A DNA stretch of 64,000 bases, from assembly GCA_902798545.1 (NCBI GenBank), contig CADBWQ010000003.1, forward strand, positions 63,125 to 127,124, given 5' to 3'. Positions 40,551 through 48,986 of this stretch are shown here, in pieces. Each line of letters starts with the position of its first letter. Within the stretch, counting starts at the first letter, position 1. Origin of the DNA: Oscillospiraceae bacterium. GTDB lineage: Bacteria; Bacillota; Clostridia; Oscillospirales; Oscillospiraceae. The notes beneath the pieces were generated by a model. It searched no databases and had not been told where the DNA came from. It was given only the letters and a program-made list of their open reading frames with translations. Both the position numbers and the translations under genes were made by a program.

Positions 40551-42242
40551 TCAGTGCTGTCCGTGCAGCGGATAGTGGATATGCAGAAGCTCGTGGGCGC
40601 GGCCCTTCAGCAGCTCGTCGTAGATATAATCCAGCGCCGGGTTCTGCTGCGGGATCTTGAGCTCGCAGTCCTCGTCTGCCTTGAAGATGGCTTCCACACG
40701 CTCTCTCTTGCGGGCGTTGGAGGCGGGCGGCTGTCCGCCGCCGCCGATGCAGCCGTTCGGGCAGGCCATGACTTCGATGAAGTCGAAGTATTCTTCCCCG
40801 CTCTCGACCTTCTCAATCAGGCGGTCGGCATTCGCGAGGCCGTTGGCCACCGCGATCTTGAGCGTCAGGTCACCCGCGGTGACCGAGAAAGCCTTGATTC
40901 CCTCCAGGCCGCGGACGCCGCACTCGGCGATGGTCTTCAGGGTATCGGGAGAGGCGTCGGCCAGCACCTTGCGGATGACGGCCTCCGTCACGCCGCCCGT
41001 AACGCCGAAGATGACGCCGGCGCCGGTGTAATCGCCCAGAGGATCGTCCGGCTCGGAGTCGGGCAGGTTCTTGAAGTCGATACCGGCGGCCTTGATGAGG
41101 CGGACCAGCTCATCCGTGGTGAGGACCAGGTCGATGAGGCGCTTGCCGTCTTTTTCAAGCTCCGGCCGTCTGGCCTCGAACTTCTTCGCCGTGCAGGGCA
41201 TGATGGCGACGGAGTAGACATCCTCGTCCTTGAACTGCTGGCGGATCAGGGCGCCCAACATTTCCATGGGGCTGCCCGCCGTGGAAACCTGCGGCATCAG
41301 GTTCGGATGGGCCTTCTCCACATGCTGGATCCAGCCGGGGCAGCAGGAGGTGAACATCGGGAGCTTGGCCCCGGACTTGACCTTCTCCAGGAACTCCGCG
41401 CTCTCTTCCATGATGGTGAGGTCGGCGGAGAGGTTGGTGTCATACACCACATCAACGCCGAGGCGGCGCAGCGCCGTGACAAGCTTTCCGGTGACGGGCT
41501 CGTTGGCGGGCATGCCGAATTCCTCGGCCATGCCGACGCGCACGCTGGGCGCGTACTGGACCACGACCCGCTTGTTCGGATCGTTCAGCATCGCCCACAT
41601 CTCGGGGATCTGACGGTTGATGGTGATGGCGCCGGTGGGGCAGACCGCCGCGCACTGGCCGCAGCCGACACAGCCGGTCTCGCTCAGCATCTTGCCGAAG
41701 CCGGGGGCGACGACCGCCCGTTTGCCGCGCTTGGTGAAATCAATGGCGCCGACGTTCTGGATCTCGGAGCACATACGGACGCAGAGGCCGCACAGGATGC
41801 ACTTGGTCGGGTCTCTAGTGATGCAGGGGGAAGAGACATCCAGCGGCAGCTTGGGATAGGTGTTCTCCTCAAAGCGCGGCTCCACGACGTTATAGCGGTG
41901 CGCGTATTCCTGGAGCTTGCAGCGTCCGCTCTGCTCACAGGTGAGGCAGTCGGCGCGGTGGCTGCTCATGAGCAGCTGCAGCGTGGTGTGGCGGCTCTCC
42001 AGGACCTTTTTGGTGTGGGTGTTGACGATCATGCCGTTGCGGGGCTGCATGGAGCAGGCCGCATCCATCGCTCCGCGCTCGTTCTCGACCAGGCAGAGAC
42101 GGCAGCCGCCGTAGATGGAAAGGTTCTCGCAGTAGCAGAGAGACGGAATGTCGATTCCGTTGTTTCTGGCGACCTCGAGCACGTTGCGCTCATTGGTAAA
42201 CGGACATTCGATGCCGTCGATGATCATTTTCTTTTCAGCCAT
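40551..42242 (-). CDS. hydA: [FeFe] hydrogenase catalytic subunit (trimeric HydA)
   Basis: 563 residues. N-terminal plant-type [2Fe-2S] domain (CYCENLSIYGGCRLC), His/Cys3 [4Fe-4S] motif (HRADCLTCEQSGRC), and two ferredoxin clusters (CILCGLCVRMC; CVGCGQCAAVCP). The H-cluster domain has all three signatures: TSCCPGW (~299), MPCTAKKFE (~349) and EVMACPNGCIGGGGQP (~490). The enzyme interconverts protons and H2. With hydB and hydC upstream it forms the NADH- and ferredoxin-linked (bifurcating-type) soluble complex. It starts 4 nt after hydB. It is shorter than many trimeric HydA subunits because it lacks a C-terminal [2Fe-2S] extension. Maturases HydEFG are not in the window. Confidence 0.95.
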   Translation of the reverse strand: MAEKKMIIDGIECPFTNERNVLEVARNNGIDIPSLCYCENLSIYGGCRLCLVENERGAMDAACSMQPRNGMIVNTHTKKVLESRHTTLQLLMSSHRADCLTCEQSGRCKLQEYAHRYNVVEPRFEENTYPKLPLDVSSPCITRDPTKCILCGLCVRMCSEIQNVGAIDFTKRGKRAVVAPGFGKMLSETGCVGCGQCAAVCPTGAITINRQIPEMWAMLNDPNKRVVVQYAPSVRVGMAEEFGMPANEPVTGKLVTALRRLGVDVVYDTNLSADLTIMEESAEFLEKVKSGAKLPMFTSCCPGWIQHVEKAHPNLMPQVSTAGSPMEMLGALIRQQFKDEDVYSVAIMPCTAKKFEARRPELEKDGKRLIDLVLTTDELVRLIKAAGIDFKNLPDSEPDDPLGDYTGAGVIFGVTGGVTEAVIRKVLADASPDTLKTIAECGVRGLEGIKAFSVTAGDLTLKIAVANGLANADRLIEKVESGEEYFDFIEVMACPNGCIGGGGQPPASNARKRERVEAIFKADEDCELKIPQQNPALDYIYDELLKGRAHELLHIHYPLHGQH

Positions 42243-44136: not shown

Positions 44137-44646
44137 TCAGGCCTCCTCTCTCAGCTGGCTCACCAGCGCTCTCGCCTTATCCGGCGTCATTGCCGCATGG
44201 ACCGTGTCGTTGACCATGACGACAGGGCTCAGGCCGCAGGCGCCAAGGCACGAGACGATCTCCAGCGTGAACAGGCCGTCGTCCGAGGTCGGCTTGTGTT
44301 CATCCGTGCCGGTGGCGTCATACAGCGCCTGAAGGATCGTGCTGCTCTTGCGCACATGGCAGGCCGTGCCGCGGCAGACCTTCATCACGTACTTGCCCTT
44401 CGCATCCAGAGAGAAGTTCCCGTAGAAAGTGGCAACTCCGTAGAGCTTGCTCTCGCTCATGCCGACTTTGCCGGCAATATACTCCAGCGCCTCCTGCGGA
44501 AGATACCTGTACTTCTCCTGCACATCCTGCATGATGGCTATGATCTTTGACTTGTCGCTGTCATATTTCTCCAGAACGGAGTCTATGAATTTGCGATCTA
44601 CGTTTTCCAACGCATTCTCACCCTTTCTTCTAAATGTATGTGACAT
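44137..44646 (-). CDS. hydC: NuoE-like [2Fe-2S] subunit of [FeFe] hydrogenase (HydC)
   Basis: Up to 169 residues. It is a thioredoxin-like [2Fe-2S] protein with cysteines in CRGTACHVR (~100) and CLGACGLSPV (~140), as in NuoE/HoxE. It is the first gene of the hydCBA operon and carries electrons between HydB and the rest of the complex. The start is uncertain: the ATG at 44646 has little ribosome site and would give a ~20-nt leader. A TTG at 44610 sits 8 nt behind AAAGGGTGAG and would begin MENVDRKFIDSVLEK, closer to family N termini. Confidence 0.93.
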   Translation of the reverse strand: MSHTFRRKGENALENVDRKFIDSVLEKYDSDKSKIIAIMQDVQEKYRYLPQEALEYIAGKVGMSESKLYGVATFYGNFSLDAKGKYVMKVCRGTACHVRKSSTILQALYDATGTDEHKPTSDDGLFTLEIVSCLGACGLSPVVMVNDTVHAAMTPDKARALVSQLREEA

Positions 44647-44786: not shown

Positions 44787-44815
44787 TTGACATTGACGAT
44801 AAAATATCATATACT
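44787..44815 (+). promoter_or_regulatory. Promoter of the TM1266/ABC transporter operon
   Basis: A perfect TTGACA (44787-44792), a 17-bp spacer and TATACT (44810-44815), ~170 nt before the first gene. It is divergent from, and ~95 bp away from, the hydCBA promoter. Confidence 0.8.
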
Positions 44816-44821
44816 CTTTTC

Positions 44822-44968
44822 GTCCGGACCGCGAGCAACGCTTTCGGTGAGGACACCCTTCATCTACTGACGCCGAAACTGTTCTTGAGGCGGAAGGCAA
44901 TCCATGTTTCGCACGCAAATTCTGTTCTGCGCAACAGCCATGCCTTCCGGCACGGCTGTTTTTGTTTT
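44822..44968 (+). promoter_or_regulatory. Structured leader with antiterminator and terminator (candidate riboswitch or attenuator)
   Basis: Terminator: acagccatgcc (44934-44944) pairs with ggcacggctgt (44949-44959), one mismatch, loop ttcc, then tttttgtttt. Antiterminator: cggaaggca (44891-44899) is a perfect complement of tgccttccg (44941-44949), which covers the terminator's ascending arm and loop. Upstream aptamer-like part: tttcggtg (44842-44849) pairs with cgccgaaa (44871-44878), and ccgc (44829-44832) can pair with gcgg (44890-44893), which would free the terminator. It matches no riboswitch class I can recall. Switching is inferred from these mutually exclusive pairings. Confidence 0.7.
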
Positions 44969-44986
44969 GGCGGGAAAGGAAGCAAA

Positions 44987-45247
44987 ATGGAAACCAGAAT
45001 CGGTGCAATCTCGATCCTCGTAGAAGATCCGGAATCCGCTGAGGCGCTGAATGCGGTTCTGCACGAATACGCCGGCTGTATTCTCGGCCGCATGGGCATC
45101 CCCTATCGGGAAAAGGGTGTCAACATTATCTGCGTGGCTGTCGACGCGCCCACAGATACCATCAATGCGCTGACCGGCAAGATCGGCCGCCTGGCCGGCG
45201 TCAGTGCGAAAGCCGTCTATTCCCGCGGGACGTCCGCTCAGAATTGA
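44987..45247 (+). CDS. TM1266-family putative iron-only hydrogenase system regulator
   Basis: 86 residues matching the TM1266 (ACT/NikR C-domain-like) family: RIGAISILVEDPESAEALNAVLHEY, LGRMGIPYREKGVNIICVAV and ALTGKIGRLAGVSAKAVYS are seen in order. The family is named for its frequent linkage to [FeFe] hydrogenase genes, and here it is divergent from hydCBA. The ferredoxin-like fold suggests ligand sensing; no DNA-binding segment is present, so the regulatory role is uncertain. The start at 44987 has AAAGGA 9 nt upstream. It is the first gene of an operon with an ABC importer, behind a structured leader. Confidence 0.88.
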   Translation: METRIGAISILVEDPESAEALNAVLHEYAGCILGRMGIPYREKGVNIICVAVDAPTDTINALTGKIGRLAGVSAKAVYSRGTSAQN

Positions 45248-45274: not shown

Positions 45275-46273
45275 ATGAAATCCACAGTCACACGTACGCT
45301 TCTCACCACACTGCTTGTGCTCTCCCTCGCGCTCTCTGTCTGCACGGTCGGCGCTTTCGCCGAAAGCGCCCAGACTGAACCCGACACAACGCTGCCCGTC
45401 CGTGTCATCACACTGAACGGAACCACCGGCTTCGGCATGGCAGGACTGATTGCCGCAGACGCGGCCGGGGAAACCGCGCTCAACTACAGCTTCACGGTCG
45501 AGACCGACGCCTCGAATGTCACTGCCGCCCTCGTGAGCGGTGACTGCGACATCGCCGCGCTCCCGACCAACGCCGCCTCGGCCCTTTACAATAAGACCGA
45601 GGGCAAGGTACAGGTTCTTGCGCTGAATACGCGCGGTGTTCTCTATCTCGTGACCGACGGTTCTGTCGCTGTCGACAGCTTCGCCGATCTCGACGGGCAG
45701 ACCGTCTATGCCCCCGCCCAGAATCCGAGCTTCATCTTTGCCTCTCTCTGCAAGGCAAACGGTGCTGACGTGACCATTGACAACACCTATGCCCAGCCGG
45801 CGGAGCTGAATGCTGCCGTCGCCGCAGGGGAAGTCAGCCTTGCCGTGCTCCCCGAGCCCATGGTCACCGTTGCCCGCAGCCAGAATCAGGATCTCGTCGT
45901 GGCCCTCGACCTCACCGAGGAGTGGGACAAGGTCTTTGAGGCGGGCAGTCTCGTCCAGGGCTGTGTCGTCGTACGCACGGAGTTTGCGGCCGCACACCCC
46001 GCGGAAGTTGCCGCTTTTCTAGCGGACTATGAAGCCTCCGTCGCCCTGCTGACCGAAGATACCGCCGCCGCCGCAAAGGCCGTCGAAGAGGCCGGTATCT
46101 TTGCCAAGGCTGCCGTTGCCGAGAAAGCCATCCCGAACTGCAACGTCTGTTTTGTCACCGGTGAAGAGATGCAGGCACAGCTCACCGCATTTCTTGAAAT
46201 CATGTTCGAAGCCGCACCCCAGTCCATCGGTGGGGCCGTTCCGGGGGCCGATTTCTACTGCATCCTGAAATGA
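45275..46273 (+). CDS. ABC transporter substrate-binding protein (NMT1/SsuA-like)
   Basis: 332 residues with a classical signal peptide (hydrophobic ~8-28, ending near AFAESA). There is no lipobox cysteine, so anchoring is by an uncleaved signal or not at all. The fold matches the type II periplasmic-binding group with NMT1/SsuA/TauA proteins: VRVITLNGTTGFGMAGLI, GDCDIAALPTNAASALYNK, VYAPAQNPSFIFA and LAVLPEPMVTVA in order. The ligand cannot be told from sequence; this group binds thiamine precursors, sulfonates and similar small molecules. The stop overlaps the permease start by 4 nt. Confidence 0.88.
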   Translation: MKSTVTRTLLTTLLVLSLALSVCTVGAFAESAQTEPDTTLPVRVITLNGTTGFGMAGLIAADAAGETALNYSFTVETDASNVTAALVSGDCDIAALPTNAASALYNKTEGKVQVLALNTRGVLYLVTDGSVAVDSFADLDGQTVYAPAQNPSFIFASLCKANGADVTIDNTYAQPAELNAAVAAGEVSLAVLPEPMVTVARSQNQDLVVALDLTEEWDKVFEAGSLVQGCVVVRTEFAAAHPAEVAAFLADYEASVALLTEDTAAAAKAVEEAGIFAKAAVAEKAIPNCNVCFVTGEEMQAQLTAFLEIMFEAAPQSIGGAVPGADFYCILK

Positions 46274-47034
46274 AGCCCGTCTCCCGCAGATTTCTCGTTT
46301 TTCTCGGGGTCTTCACGTTCTGGACAGGTGTCTGGATTCTGGCGGCGGAGCTGGTCGGAAGCGAGCTGCTCCTGCCCTCCCCCGCACAGGTTCTGCGGCG
46401 GTTTCTGGCGCTCGCCGGGACTTCCGCGTTCTGGCTCACGGTGGGCACCAGCATTCTCCGTGTGCTGAGCGGGATTCTCTGCGCCGCCGTGCTCGGCGTC
46501 CTGCTCGCAATCCTGACGGAGAACAGCGTGATCTGCAAAACGCTGCTCTCCCCTCTCATGGTGCTTGTCAAAAGCACCCCGGTCGCCTCTTTCATTATTC
46601 TGGCTCTCATCTGGCTGGGCCGCGGGGTTCTCCCCGCCTTCATTTCCGCGCTCATGGTGCTGCCCATTGTCTGGATCAATGTCTCATCCGGCATCGCCGC
46701 TCAGGATCCCCTGCTCCTGGAGATGGCCCGGGTCTACGGTTTCTCGCGCGGCAGGATTCTGAAGCGGATCACCCTCCCGACGGTGCTGCCGTTTTTTCGC
46801 TCGGCACTGAGCTCCGCACTCGGACTCGGCTGGAAGGCCGGGATCGCCGCCGAGGTGCTGACGGTTCCTCAGCCTTCCGTCGGCAAGATGATCTTCGAGT
46901 CGAAGCTCTATCTTGAGACGACAGATCTTTTTGCCTGGACGCTGGCAGTCATTCTCCTCAGCCTGTTCATTGAGCGGTTTCTTCTGAAGCTGGTTCAGCG
47001 GATCGGTGGGAAGGAGGTTTGCAAACATGCTTGA
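46270..47034 (+). CDS. ABC transporter permease (SsuC/ThiX-like)
   Basis: 254 residues with six TM segments and the permease EAA loop (EMARVYGFSRGRILKRITLPTVLP). It belongs to the BPD_transp_1 group that pairs with NMT1/SsuA-type binding proteins. It overlaps the genes on both sides (4 and 8 nt), so binding protein, permease and ATPase are translationally coupled. Confidence 0.92.
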   Translation: MKPVSRRFLVFLGVFTFWTGVWILAAELVGSELLLPSPAQVLRRFLALAGTSAFWLTVGTSILRVLSGILCAAVLGVLLAILTENSVICKTLLSPLMVLVKSTPVASFIILALIWLGRGVLPAFISALMVLPIVWINVSSGIAAQDPLLLEMARVYGFSRGRILKRITLPTVLPFFRSALSSALGLGWKAGIAAEVLTVPQPSVGKMIFESKLYLETTDLFAWTLAVILLSLFIERFLLKLVQRIGGKEVCKHA

Positions 47035-47674: not shown

Positions 47675-47804
47675 CCGCCGGATTGCGGCGGCGCTGTCTT
47701 CCGCGTTGGCCGTTCAGTGCCCATTCGGTCTTGCGAAGCCGACAAAGAAAAGGTATAATTTCATTATCTTTCAGAGATCAAAACAAAGAATGCGAGGCGC
47801 CTGA

Positions 47805-48986
47805 ATGGATACCCTGATTGAACTGTACGACGAGCGGCCGCTGGAAAACGTCATCGGTGTGGAGATGTTTCATCCCCAGCGCGTGGTGTATATCTGTCAG
47901 GAGAGCGTTCCCTCCGACCAGACACTTCAGAAGAAGCTCCGTGCCTATTTCCAGCACCGGGGGCAGAAGGTTGAGCTGATTTTTGTACGTTCCAGCATGT
48001 ATGACACCGATGCGATCCTGCGGGTCTTTCAGAAGACGATGGAAAAATACCCCGATTGCGCCATCGACATCACCGGCGGAACCGACGCGGTGCTCTTTGC
48101 CGCCGGCCTTGCCAGCGCCGCGAATGATGTTCCCGTCTTCACCTACAGCCGCAAACAGAACCGTTTTTATAACATCCGCAATGCTCCCTTCGCTTCGAAT
48201 GTCCTGTGCGATGTGATCTACAGCGTTGAAGACTGTTTTCTGATGGCCGGCGGCTCCATGCGCAGGGGCCGTGTGGACAACAGCATTCTCGCCGGCTACC
48301 TGAATGACATCGATCCCTTTTTCCAGCTCTATCTGCGGCACCGCCGCCAGTGGACAAAGATCGTGACCTATATCCAGCGCATCTCACCCGCGGACGCGGA
48401 TGGGCTTTTCTCCCTCTCCGTCAGCGGTGCCTATCGCGTGAAAGGGGAACGCGCCGACCGGATTCCCGCGCCGGAAGATGCCCTGCACGAGCTGGAAGAA
48501 ATCGGATTCCTGTCGGAACTTCGGATCGAGCCGGAGGAGTCGGTCTCCTTTCGCTTCCGGGACGCCCAGATCCGCACATGGCTGCGCGATGTCGGGAGTG
48601 TCCTGGAACTGTACGTCTACAAAGCCTGCCTGGACAGCCGGCTGTTCAATGACGTGATTACCAGCGCCGTCGTGGACTGGGAAGCCAGCGGAAGTCAGGA
48701 TGCCGTTACCAACGAGCTGGACGTGATGTGTACGCGCGGCACCATGCCGGTCTTCATCAGCTGCAAGACCTGTGACGCCAGGACCGAAGCCCTCAACGAG
48801 CTTGCGATTCTGCGCGACCGCTTCGGCGGAAAGAGCGCCAAGGCCGCCATCGTCACCGCTGAAAAGGGCGGTTCCGCCATGCGCAACCGCGCTGCCGAGC
48901 TCGGGATCGACGTCATCGATCTGAATGACCTTACGGCCGGTCGAACCGGCCGCCGGCTTCAGGCACTGATGCGGGATGTCAAATAA
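47805..48986 (+). CDS. Card1/Can2-like CARF domain nuclease (DUF1887)
   Basis: 393 residues. The N-terminal ~150 form a CARF-like Rossmann domain, with the typical loop AIDITGGTDAVLFAAGLA (~85-102) that contacts cyclic oligoadenylate in Card1. A winged-helix-like linker follows. The C-terminal ~130 residues are a PD-(D/E)xK nuclease: Glu in VLELYVYKAC (~270), Asp in TNELDVMC (~311), then VFISCKT (~325). Card1/Can2 cut DNA and/or RNA when type III CRISPR systems make cyclic tetra-adenylate. Oddity: the usual E-x-K of the third motif reads S-C-K here, as I recall for some DUF1887 proteins, so catalysis may use a shifted acid. No CRISPR array or cas10 is in the window. Confidence 0.83.
   Translation: MDTLIELYDERPLENVIGVEMFHPQRVVYICQESVPSDQTLQKKLRAYFQHRGQKVELIFVRSSMYDTDAILRVFQKTMEKYPDCAIDITGGTDAVLFAAGLASAANDVPVFTYSRKQNRFYNIRNAPFASNVLCDVIYSVEDCFLMAGGSMRRGRVDNSILAGYLNDIDPFFQLYLRHRRQWTKIVTYIQRISPADADGLFSLSVSGAYRVKGERADRIPAPEDALHELEEIGFLSELRIEPEESVSFRFRDAQIRTWLRDVGSVLELYVYKACLDSRLFNDVITSAVVDWEASGSQDAVTNELDVMCTRGTMPVFISCKTCDARTEALNELAILRDRFGGKSAKAAIVTAEKGGSAMRNRAAELGIDVIDLNDLTAGRTGRRLQALMRDVK

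Follow-up and report, generated by a model that had tools for sequence, protein, structure and literature searches.

ANTAR-dependent antitermination RNAs consist of two hairpins with hexanucleotide loops in which A1 and G4 are conserved. The HMP-PP riboswitch (thiS motif) is a compact transcription attenuator in which the loop of the terminator is conserved and the sensor and terminator states exclude each other (PMC6478431). Rex sites are predicted for hydG and the TM1266-type gene of Clostridium thermocellum (PMC8457756), so control at the DNA level exists as well. Across the open-access literature searched, neither RNA control of HydE/HydG/HydF maturation nor a description of TM1266 together with a riboswitch was found. 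No regulation of TM1266 is evident from open-access titles or abstracts, and among the open-access matches listed that join hydE, hydG, hydrogenase maturation or nitrogenase-like genes with riboswitches or structured RNAs, none describes this RNA by title or abstract, a scope outside which the large 2017 motif survey lies. The matching passages of PMC3543383, PMC10418091 and PMC8457756 hold no description of the RNA, and hydrogenase is never mentioned in the main text of the RNA surveys and reviews PMC11109978, PMC8632094, PMC2864571, PMC6429828 and PMC7266159.

Here, we describe a leader RNA from a 64,000-nucleotide stretch of Oscillospiraceae DNA (the window). With a probability of roughly 0.6, judged from comparative sequence analysis, this leader attenuates transcription and belongs to a class of cis-regulatory RNAs, apparently undescribed, that control H-cluster supply genes. 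Its parts are as follows:

44787–44815, plus strand: sigma-70-type promoter, TTGACA and TATACT spaced by 17 nt, 11 of 12 consensus positions
44824–44852, plus strand: 5' hairpin CCGG-ACCG-CGAG...CUUU-CGGU-GAGG, of core-like plan, also present in the free fold
44867–44896, plus strand: core hairpin CUGA-CGCC-GAAA...UUGA-GGCG-GAAG, candidate sensor, supported by covariation and a model match of 47.8 bits (E 2.2e-12)
44891–44899, plus strand: 5' strand of the antiterminator, cggaaggca, which overlaps the core on its 3' side; its partner, the antiterminator 3' strand at 44941–44949, lies inside the terminator
44933–44960, plus strand: hairpin of the intrinsic terminator, with a T-rich tail that runs to about 44968

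The promoter is the best of six sites in 8 kb, where 2.2 would be expected, and would start transcription at about 44822, giving a leader of about 165 nt before the TM1266 start codon (ATG at 44987). The terminator hairpin comprises 7 + 4 pairs flanking a single A-C mismatch, and the fold of 44925–44972 is more stable than most shuffled versions (z −2.42; 7 of 200 shuffles equally good). All nine positions of tgccttccg (44941–44949) pair with cggaaggca (44891–44899). The positions that the preliminary description had given for promoter, leader, terminator and antiterminator thus all hold. Enforced folds of the window leader yield −46.7 kcal/mol with the terminator and −49.1 kcal/mol with the antiterminator, values so nearly equal that the sequence does not reveal which state is the default or in which direction the leader switches. 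The stability of the entire leader is not unusual in itself (z −1.67; 11 of 200 shuffles equally good) and was rejected as weak evidence; chance was excluded through homologous leaders instead.

The leader opens an operon that begins with TM1266 and continues with an ABC importer, and a hydrogenase operon diverges from it:

44987–45247, plus strand: protein of the TM1266 family, encoded by the operon's first gene; TIGR03959 at 108.3 bits (cut-off 60.8), PF21699
45275–46273, plus strand: SsuA/NMT1-like substrate-binding protein (SBP) of the ABC importer; PF02621 and PF09084 over cut-off, TIGR01728 below
46270–47034, plus strand: permease of the importer; PF00528
47006–47626, plus strand: ATPase of the importer; PF00005, true start possibly the ATG at 47027
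44137–44646, minus strand: HydC-like thioredoxin-type ferredoxin, divergent neighbour; PF01257
42246–44132, minus strand: HydB-like subunit of the hydrogenase operon, named by position and by similarity to homologous loci
40551–42242, minus strand: HydA, group A [FeFe] hydrogenase; TIGR02512 at 462.6 bits (cut-off 405.95)

Membership of the TM1266 family and of the group A hydrogenases is thus clear from these scores, and HydA carries TSCCPGW, MPCTAKKFE and CPNGCIGGGGQP, which we take to be its H-cluster motifs. In the SBP, cysteines C159, C230, C289 and C292 and an LNGTTGFGM stretch are conserved in more than 95% of 81 sequences; the nearest solved structure by sequence is 3hn0. Further downstream, 47805–48986 encodes a protein with a Card1-like endonuclease domain (PF09002) that has its own promoter-like site, at 47731.

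Homologous leaders were collected from several sources. A search with the SBP, from which the best 80 of 297 loci in named genomes were kept, contributed to a motif search over 111 loci. The conserved element was recovered in 68, a count that includes both copies of the window itself, and 55 of the 68 are unique. The consensus of the core is CUGA-[4 bp]-RAAN...NURA-[4 bp]-RAAG. In A1, an alignment of 48 of the 55 unique cores made with MAFFT and without structure, 96.6% of cells are paired and two-sided changes number 16 against 3.7 in shuffled alignments (reached in 0 of 500), while slid registers give 0–2. A structure-fitted alignment of 75 sequences (A2) has 50 two-sided cells against 12.6. 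The same signal appears in A4, which holds 38 model-found sequences, 37 of which belong to families other than that of the window (L137 is the exception), again aligned with MAFFT without structure; the near-duplicates L120, L127 and L129 were left out and the tail of L193 was trimmed. Here, 96.1% of cells are paired; two-sided changes number 45 against 12.8 in shuffled alignments (0 of 500), while slid registers give at most 13. RNAalifold, run on A4 with no structure imposed, recovers the same core, one pair longer, with two-sided changes at seven of nine pairs.

The 2x2 loops of the core are rich in G and A, which would be compatible with tandem sheared pairs. Within the aligned cores there is no conserved start codon of a leader peptide. 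A second model match in the window's own genome (E 0.44) was treated as chance.

Of 90 leaders, 25 (that of the window and 24 of the other 89) carry upstream a hairpin that matches the strict pattern of the 5' hairpin, against 0.03 in shuffles. This hairpin has 25 two-sided cells against 5.8, a figure to be read knowing that the inner N4/N4' pairing was itself a criterion of selection. The hydE-type leaders L123, L129, L173, L185 and L189, which come from other families, have it as well. The two hairpins may be copies of one module, and they may act as tandem sensors.

This arrangement replaces the two-stem, aptamer-like fold that the preliminary description had drawn. Homologous leaders do show a covarying RNA, though not the fold proposed: two hairpins do exist, at 44867–44896 and, similar to it, at 44824–44852, in place of the stem between TTTCGGTG and CGCCGAAA. 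That stem can form in the window and is complete in 4 of the 25 two-hairpin leaders (701 of 2000 permutations score as high); the accompanying CCGC–GCGG third pairing, likewise formable in the window, occurs in 13 of the 25 (238 of 2000). As the 25 leaders do no better than permuted partners, both elements were rejected.

The expression platform was followed across 90 leaders, made up of the 75 rows of A2 and 15 class loci, with the class matches L174, L218, L253, L263 and L269 excluded. An automatic scan places a terminator 3' of the core in 85 of the 90, a number obtained without a shuffled control. No terminator is seen in L086, L093, L094, L106 and L124, and the picks are unconvincing in a few others, such as L046, L057, L186 and L230. 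The 3' strand of the core matches the terminator arm of its own leader with a mean of −13.4 kcal/mol, against −10.2 (sd 0.32) for permuted partners, a value reached in 0 of 5000 permutations; this supports the exclusive terminator and antiterminator first noticed in the window. Because RAAG is wanted both by the core, where it meets CUGA, and by the antiterminator, a stabilised core should favour termination, which points to a switch of the OFF type.

The core would be stabilised by a signal, in all likelihood a metal complex or small molecule indicating the status of H-cluster precursors. CUGA would then hold RAAG, the terminator would form and the operon would be off. Without the signal, the strand beginning RAAGRY would capture the terminator arm, and TM1266 and the importer, or the maturases, would be transcribed.

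The spread of the RNA bears on what this signal might be. At the order level, a search with model R1 matched 35 of 394 genomes at E ≤ 0.01 and returned 30 loci, one of them the window; five weaker genomes fell outside these loci, and in one of the five (G098) HydE lies about 340 bases 3' of the match. Besides the window, 25 of the 29 matches (L114–L142) precede TM1266, hydE, hydG, FecCD or SBP genes. TM1266 follows directly in 22, and is itself followed by hydE (13), FecCD (6), hydG (1), SBP (1) or the contig end (1). Three more have hydE or hydG without TM1266, either next to the RNA (L125) or with an intervening gene (L117 and L124). One match (L134) lies at a contig edge with no relevant gene in view, and L132, L138 and L140, which have no related gene nearby, were treated as false. 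NCBIfam models identify HydE on L115 and L125, HydG on L133 and HydF on L185.

At the class level, TM1266 proteins occur in 183 of 292 genomes. From these genomes, 99 TM1266 loci were taken, mostly from the top of the list and picked by protein alone, and scanned with model R2 (75 sequences). At E ≤ 0.01 the RNA was found in 16, in 14 of which it ends 56–138 nt upstream of TM1266; the operons of the 16 read TM1266-hydE-hydG-(HydF-like) or part thereof. In L234 and L271 the RNA sits between TM1266 and hydG, not before TM1266. The remaining 83 loci gave no match at this threshold, so TM1266 often either dispenses with the RNA or carries a form that the model misses.

The RNA is present at 61 of the 80 SBP loci kept as the best of 297. 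Of these 61, 53 have TM1266 upstream of the SBP and 32 have a divergent hydC upstream. The corresponding counts in the 19 loci without RNA are three and one, with absence judged mainly by sequence pattern and by model scan in five of the 19.

The RNA thus precedes hydE-hydG-hydF maturation operons in several Clostridia families, and its association with the genes of one pathway is steady: TM1266, hydE/hydG/hydF and importers beside [FeFe] hydrogenase. A structured, conserved 5' leader RNA with an expression platform and a constant gene context is what is expected of a riboswitch. The preliminary description had tied the leader to TM1266-ABC importer operons, a specificity that proved too narrow. 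Since the RNA also stands before hydE/hydG/hydF and FecCD operons, the signal is more likely to be H-cluster supply than the ligand of one importer alone.

An 80-genome panel was drawn from RNA or TM1266 loci; many of its members are drafts, and completeness is not given for the 40 reached through named loci. In the panel, 52 genomes have both the RNA and an SsuA/NMT1-type importer. Group A HydA is over cut-off in 42 of these and not in the other 10, HydE in only three (G079, G170 and G855), HydF in the same three and HydG in none of the 20 tested. HydA is present, and HydE, HydF and HydG are not found over cut-off, both in the draft genome of the window itself (91.8% complete) and in G251, which belongs to another family, is 100% complete and has the order RNA-TM1266-SBP-ABC. 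In five TM1266-SBP genomes without an RNA match, HydE and HydF were found in none and HydA in three. HydE and HydF are present in every one of the 16 hyd-type genomes, and group A HydA in 15; the six FecCD-type genomes all have HydE and HydF, four have HydA, and none of three tested has HydG.

Gene order adds candidates. In six of six loci (L291–L296, from G236, G215, G150, G289, G338 and G229), the RNA leads a run of TM1266, FecCD, an ATPase, a NifH-like protein, two nitrogenase-component-1-like proteins and a BtuF-like SBP, with protein families checked on L291; HydE lies inside the run in L291–L293. The ATPase of L291 ends in a C-terminal TM1266 domain (64 bits, Pfam), and the equivalent reading frames of L293, L294 and L296 match TM1266 too. 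Elsewhere, a contig of G170 (C9, L299) has the run HydE-permease-ATPase-SBP-HydF with an SsuA/NMT1-type importer, in a genome with no HydG over cut-off, and G079 has FecCD-ATPase-HydF-TM1266-HydE (L298); in both genomes the RNA is located at the SBP locus and not at these runs. In L265 (G606), for which no RNA match was recorded, the order TM1266-NflD-NflK-HydF places nitrogenase-like proteins in a hydrogenase maturation operon.

The boldest reading, which we regard as speculative and rather unlikely, is that of an organometallic-cofactor riboswitch. It would sense H-cluster precursor or supply and shut off synthesis (hydE, hydG, hydF) or uptake, with importers (the SsuA/NMT1 type beside TM1266, and the FecCD type beside a TM1266-fused ATPase, nitrogenase-like proteins and HydE) replacing the missing maturases in bacteria that obtain the building blocks of the H-cluster from neighbours or by a route independent of HydG. 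If true, this would account for the [FeFe] hydrogenases of genomes that lack maturases. Against the import part, 200 genomes from the family of the window include 108 with the SBP family, 50 with HydE over cut-off (150 without) and 22 with both, an exclusion that is not significant (Fisher odds ratio 0.58, p = 0.105); the 18 closest SBPs show none either (HydE with four, p = 1). HydA scores come from the 80-genome panel, so the import idea draws on that panel and on gene order.

Other explanations of the leader itself must be weighed against a new RNA class. Attenuation could depend on a protein, with TM1266 or another protein binding the GA-flanked hairpin or hairpins and favouring the terminator, an autoregulation in which TM1266 would sense the metabolite. 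This is a minority reading with some claim to attention: the hairpin is small for an aptamer, TM1266 lies immediately 3' of the RNA in 22 of the 29 order-level matches and upstream of the SBP in 53 of the 61 RNA-bearing loci, and TM1266 is encoded in 10 of 11 RNA genomes tested, mostly picked because it was not directly 3' of the RNA. So constant a company makes a protein-dependent switch possible. Yet no TM1266 was found in G835, a draft genome with the RNA, most of the 99 TM1266 loci from the 183 class genomes lack an RNA match, and TM1266 is not known to bind RNA. It is very improbable that the leader is just a constitutive partial terminator, or an RNA-stability element, whose conservation involves no signal, as the conserved unpaired purines, the covarying alternative pairing and the second similar hairpin exceed what a plain terminator needs.

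That the RNA is a highly divergent member of a known riboswitch class, missed by its covariance model, is improbable, even though small aptamers are hard for such models and the attenuator architecture is ordinary. With Rfam 15, the whole window searched at gathering thresholds has no match in the leader, bearing out the earlier view of a riboswitch-like attenuator outside known RNA families. Relaxed searches of the window leader and 31 further loci gave, at or near the leaders, only sub-threshold matches to unrelated families and no known riboswitch at the element; genuine matches in the searched loci lie away from the leaders. The T-box models match none of the searched leaders, with T-box matches elsewhere in L258 and L271, and an ANTAR-dependent RNA was set aside because the loops vary in length and sequence. 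To our knowledge, no riboswitch class fits a context of TM1266, hyd genes and importers. The HMP-PP riboswitch (PMC6478431) was also rejected: in the window RNA, core and terminator are separate, and TM1266, hyd genes and importers lie downstream. At the edge of one locus (L018, 3838–3885), downstream of its importer region, there is a partial SAM riboswitch (43.6 bits, gathering threshold 44.4).

If a new attenuator class is the correct reading, a regulatory RNA tied to organometallic H-cluster assembly would be present in several Clostridia families, including gut and rumen lineages, and its neighbourhoods would suggest importers and nitrogenase-like proteins as candidate replacements for HydE, HydF and HydG.

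Known systems offer several points of comparison. Ligand-sensing domains occur on other importers, with MetN as an example, and the TM1266 domain on the L291 ATPase is reminiscent of these. The HydE/HydG/HydF maturation system is linked to the RNA, which precedes such operons, whereas the window's own draft genome has none of the three over cut-off. Guanidine-II (mini-ykkC) leaders likewise contain two similar short hairpins, but these have conserved tetraloops, while the window RNA has conserved 2x2 purine loops, an optional 5' copy and no Rfam match. The xanthine (NMT1 motif) riboswitch (PMC7373994) is named for an NMT1-type gene; the window RNA accompanies other genes and has no Rfam match. 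Finally, the HMP-PP riboswitch shares with the window RNA the compact plan of a transcription attenuator and differs in having its aptamer inside the terminator, switching genes ON and serving thiamin genes, whereas the window RNA carries its core upstream of the terminator and precedes H-cluster genes.
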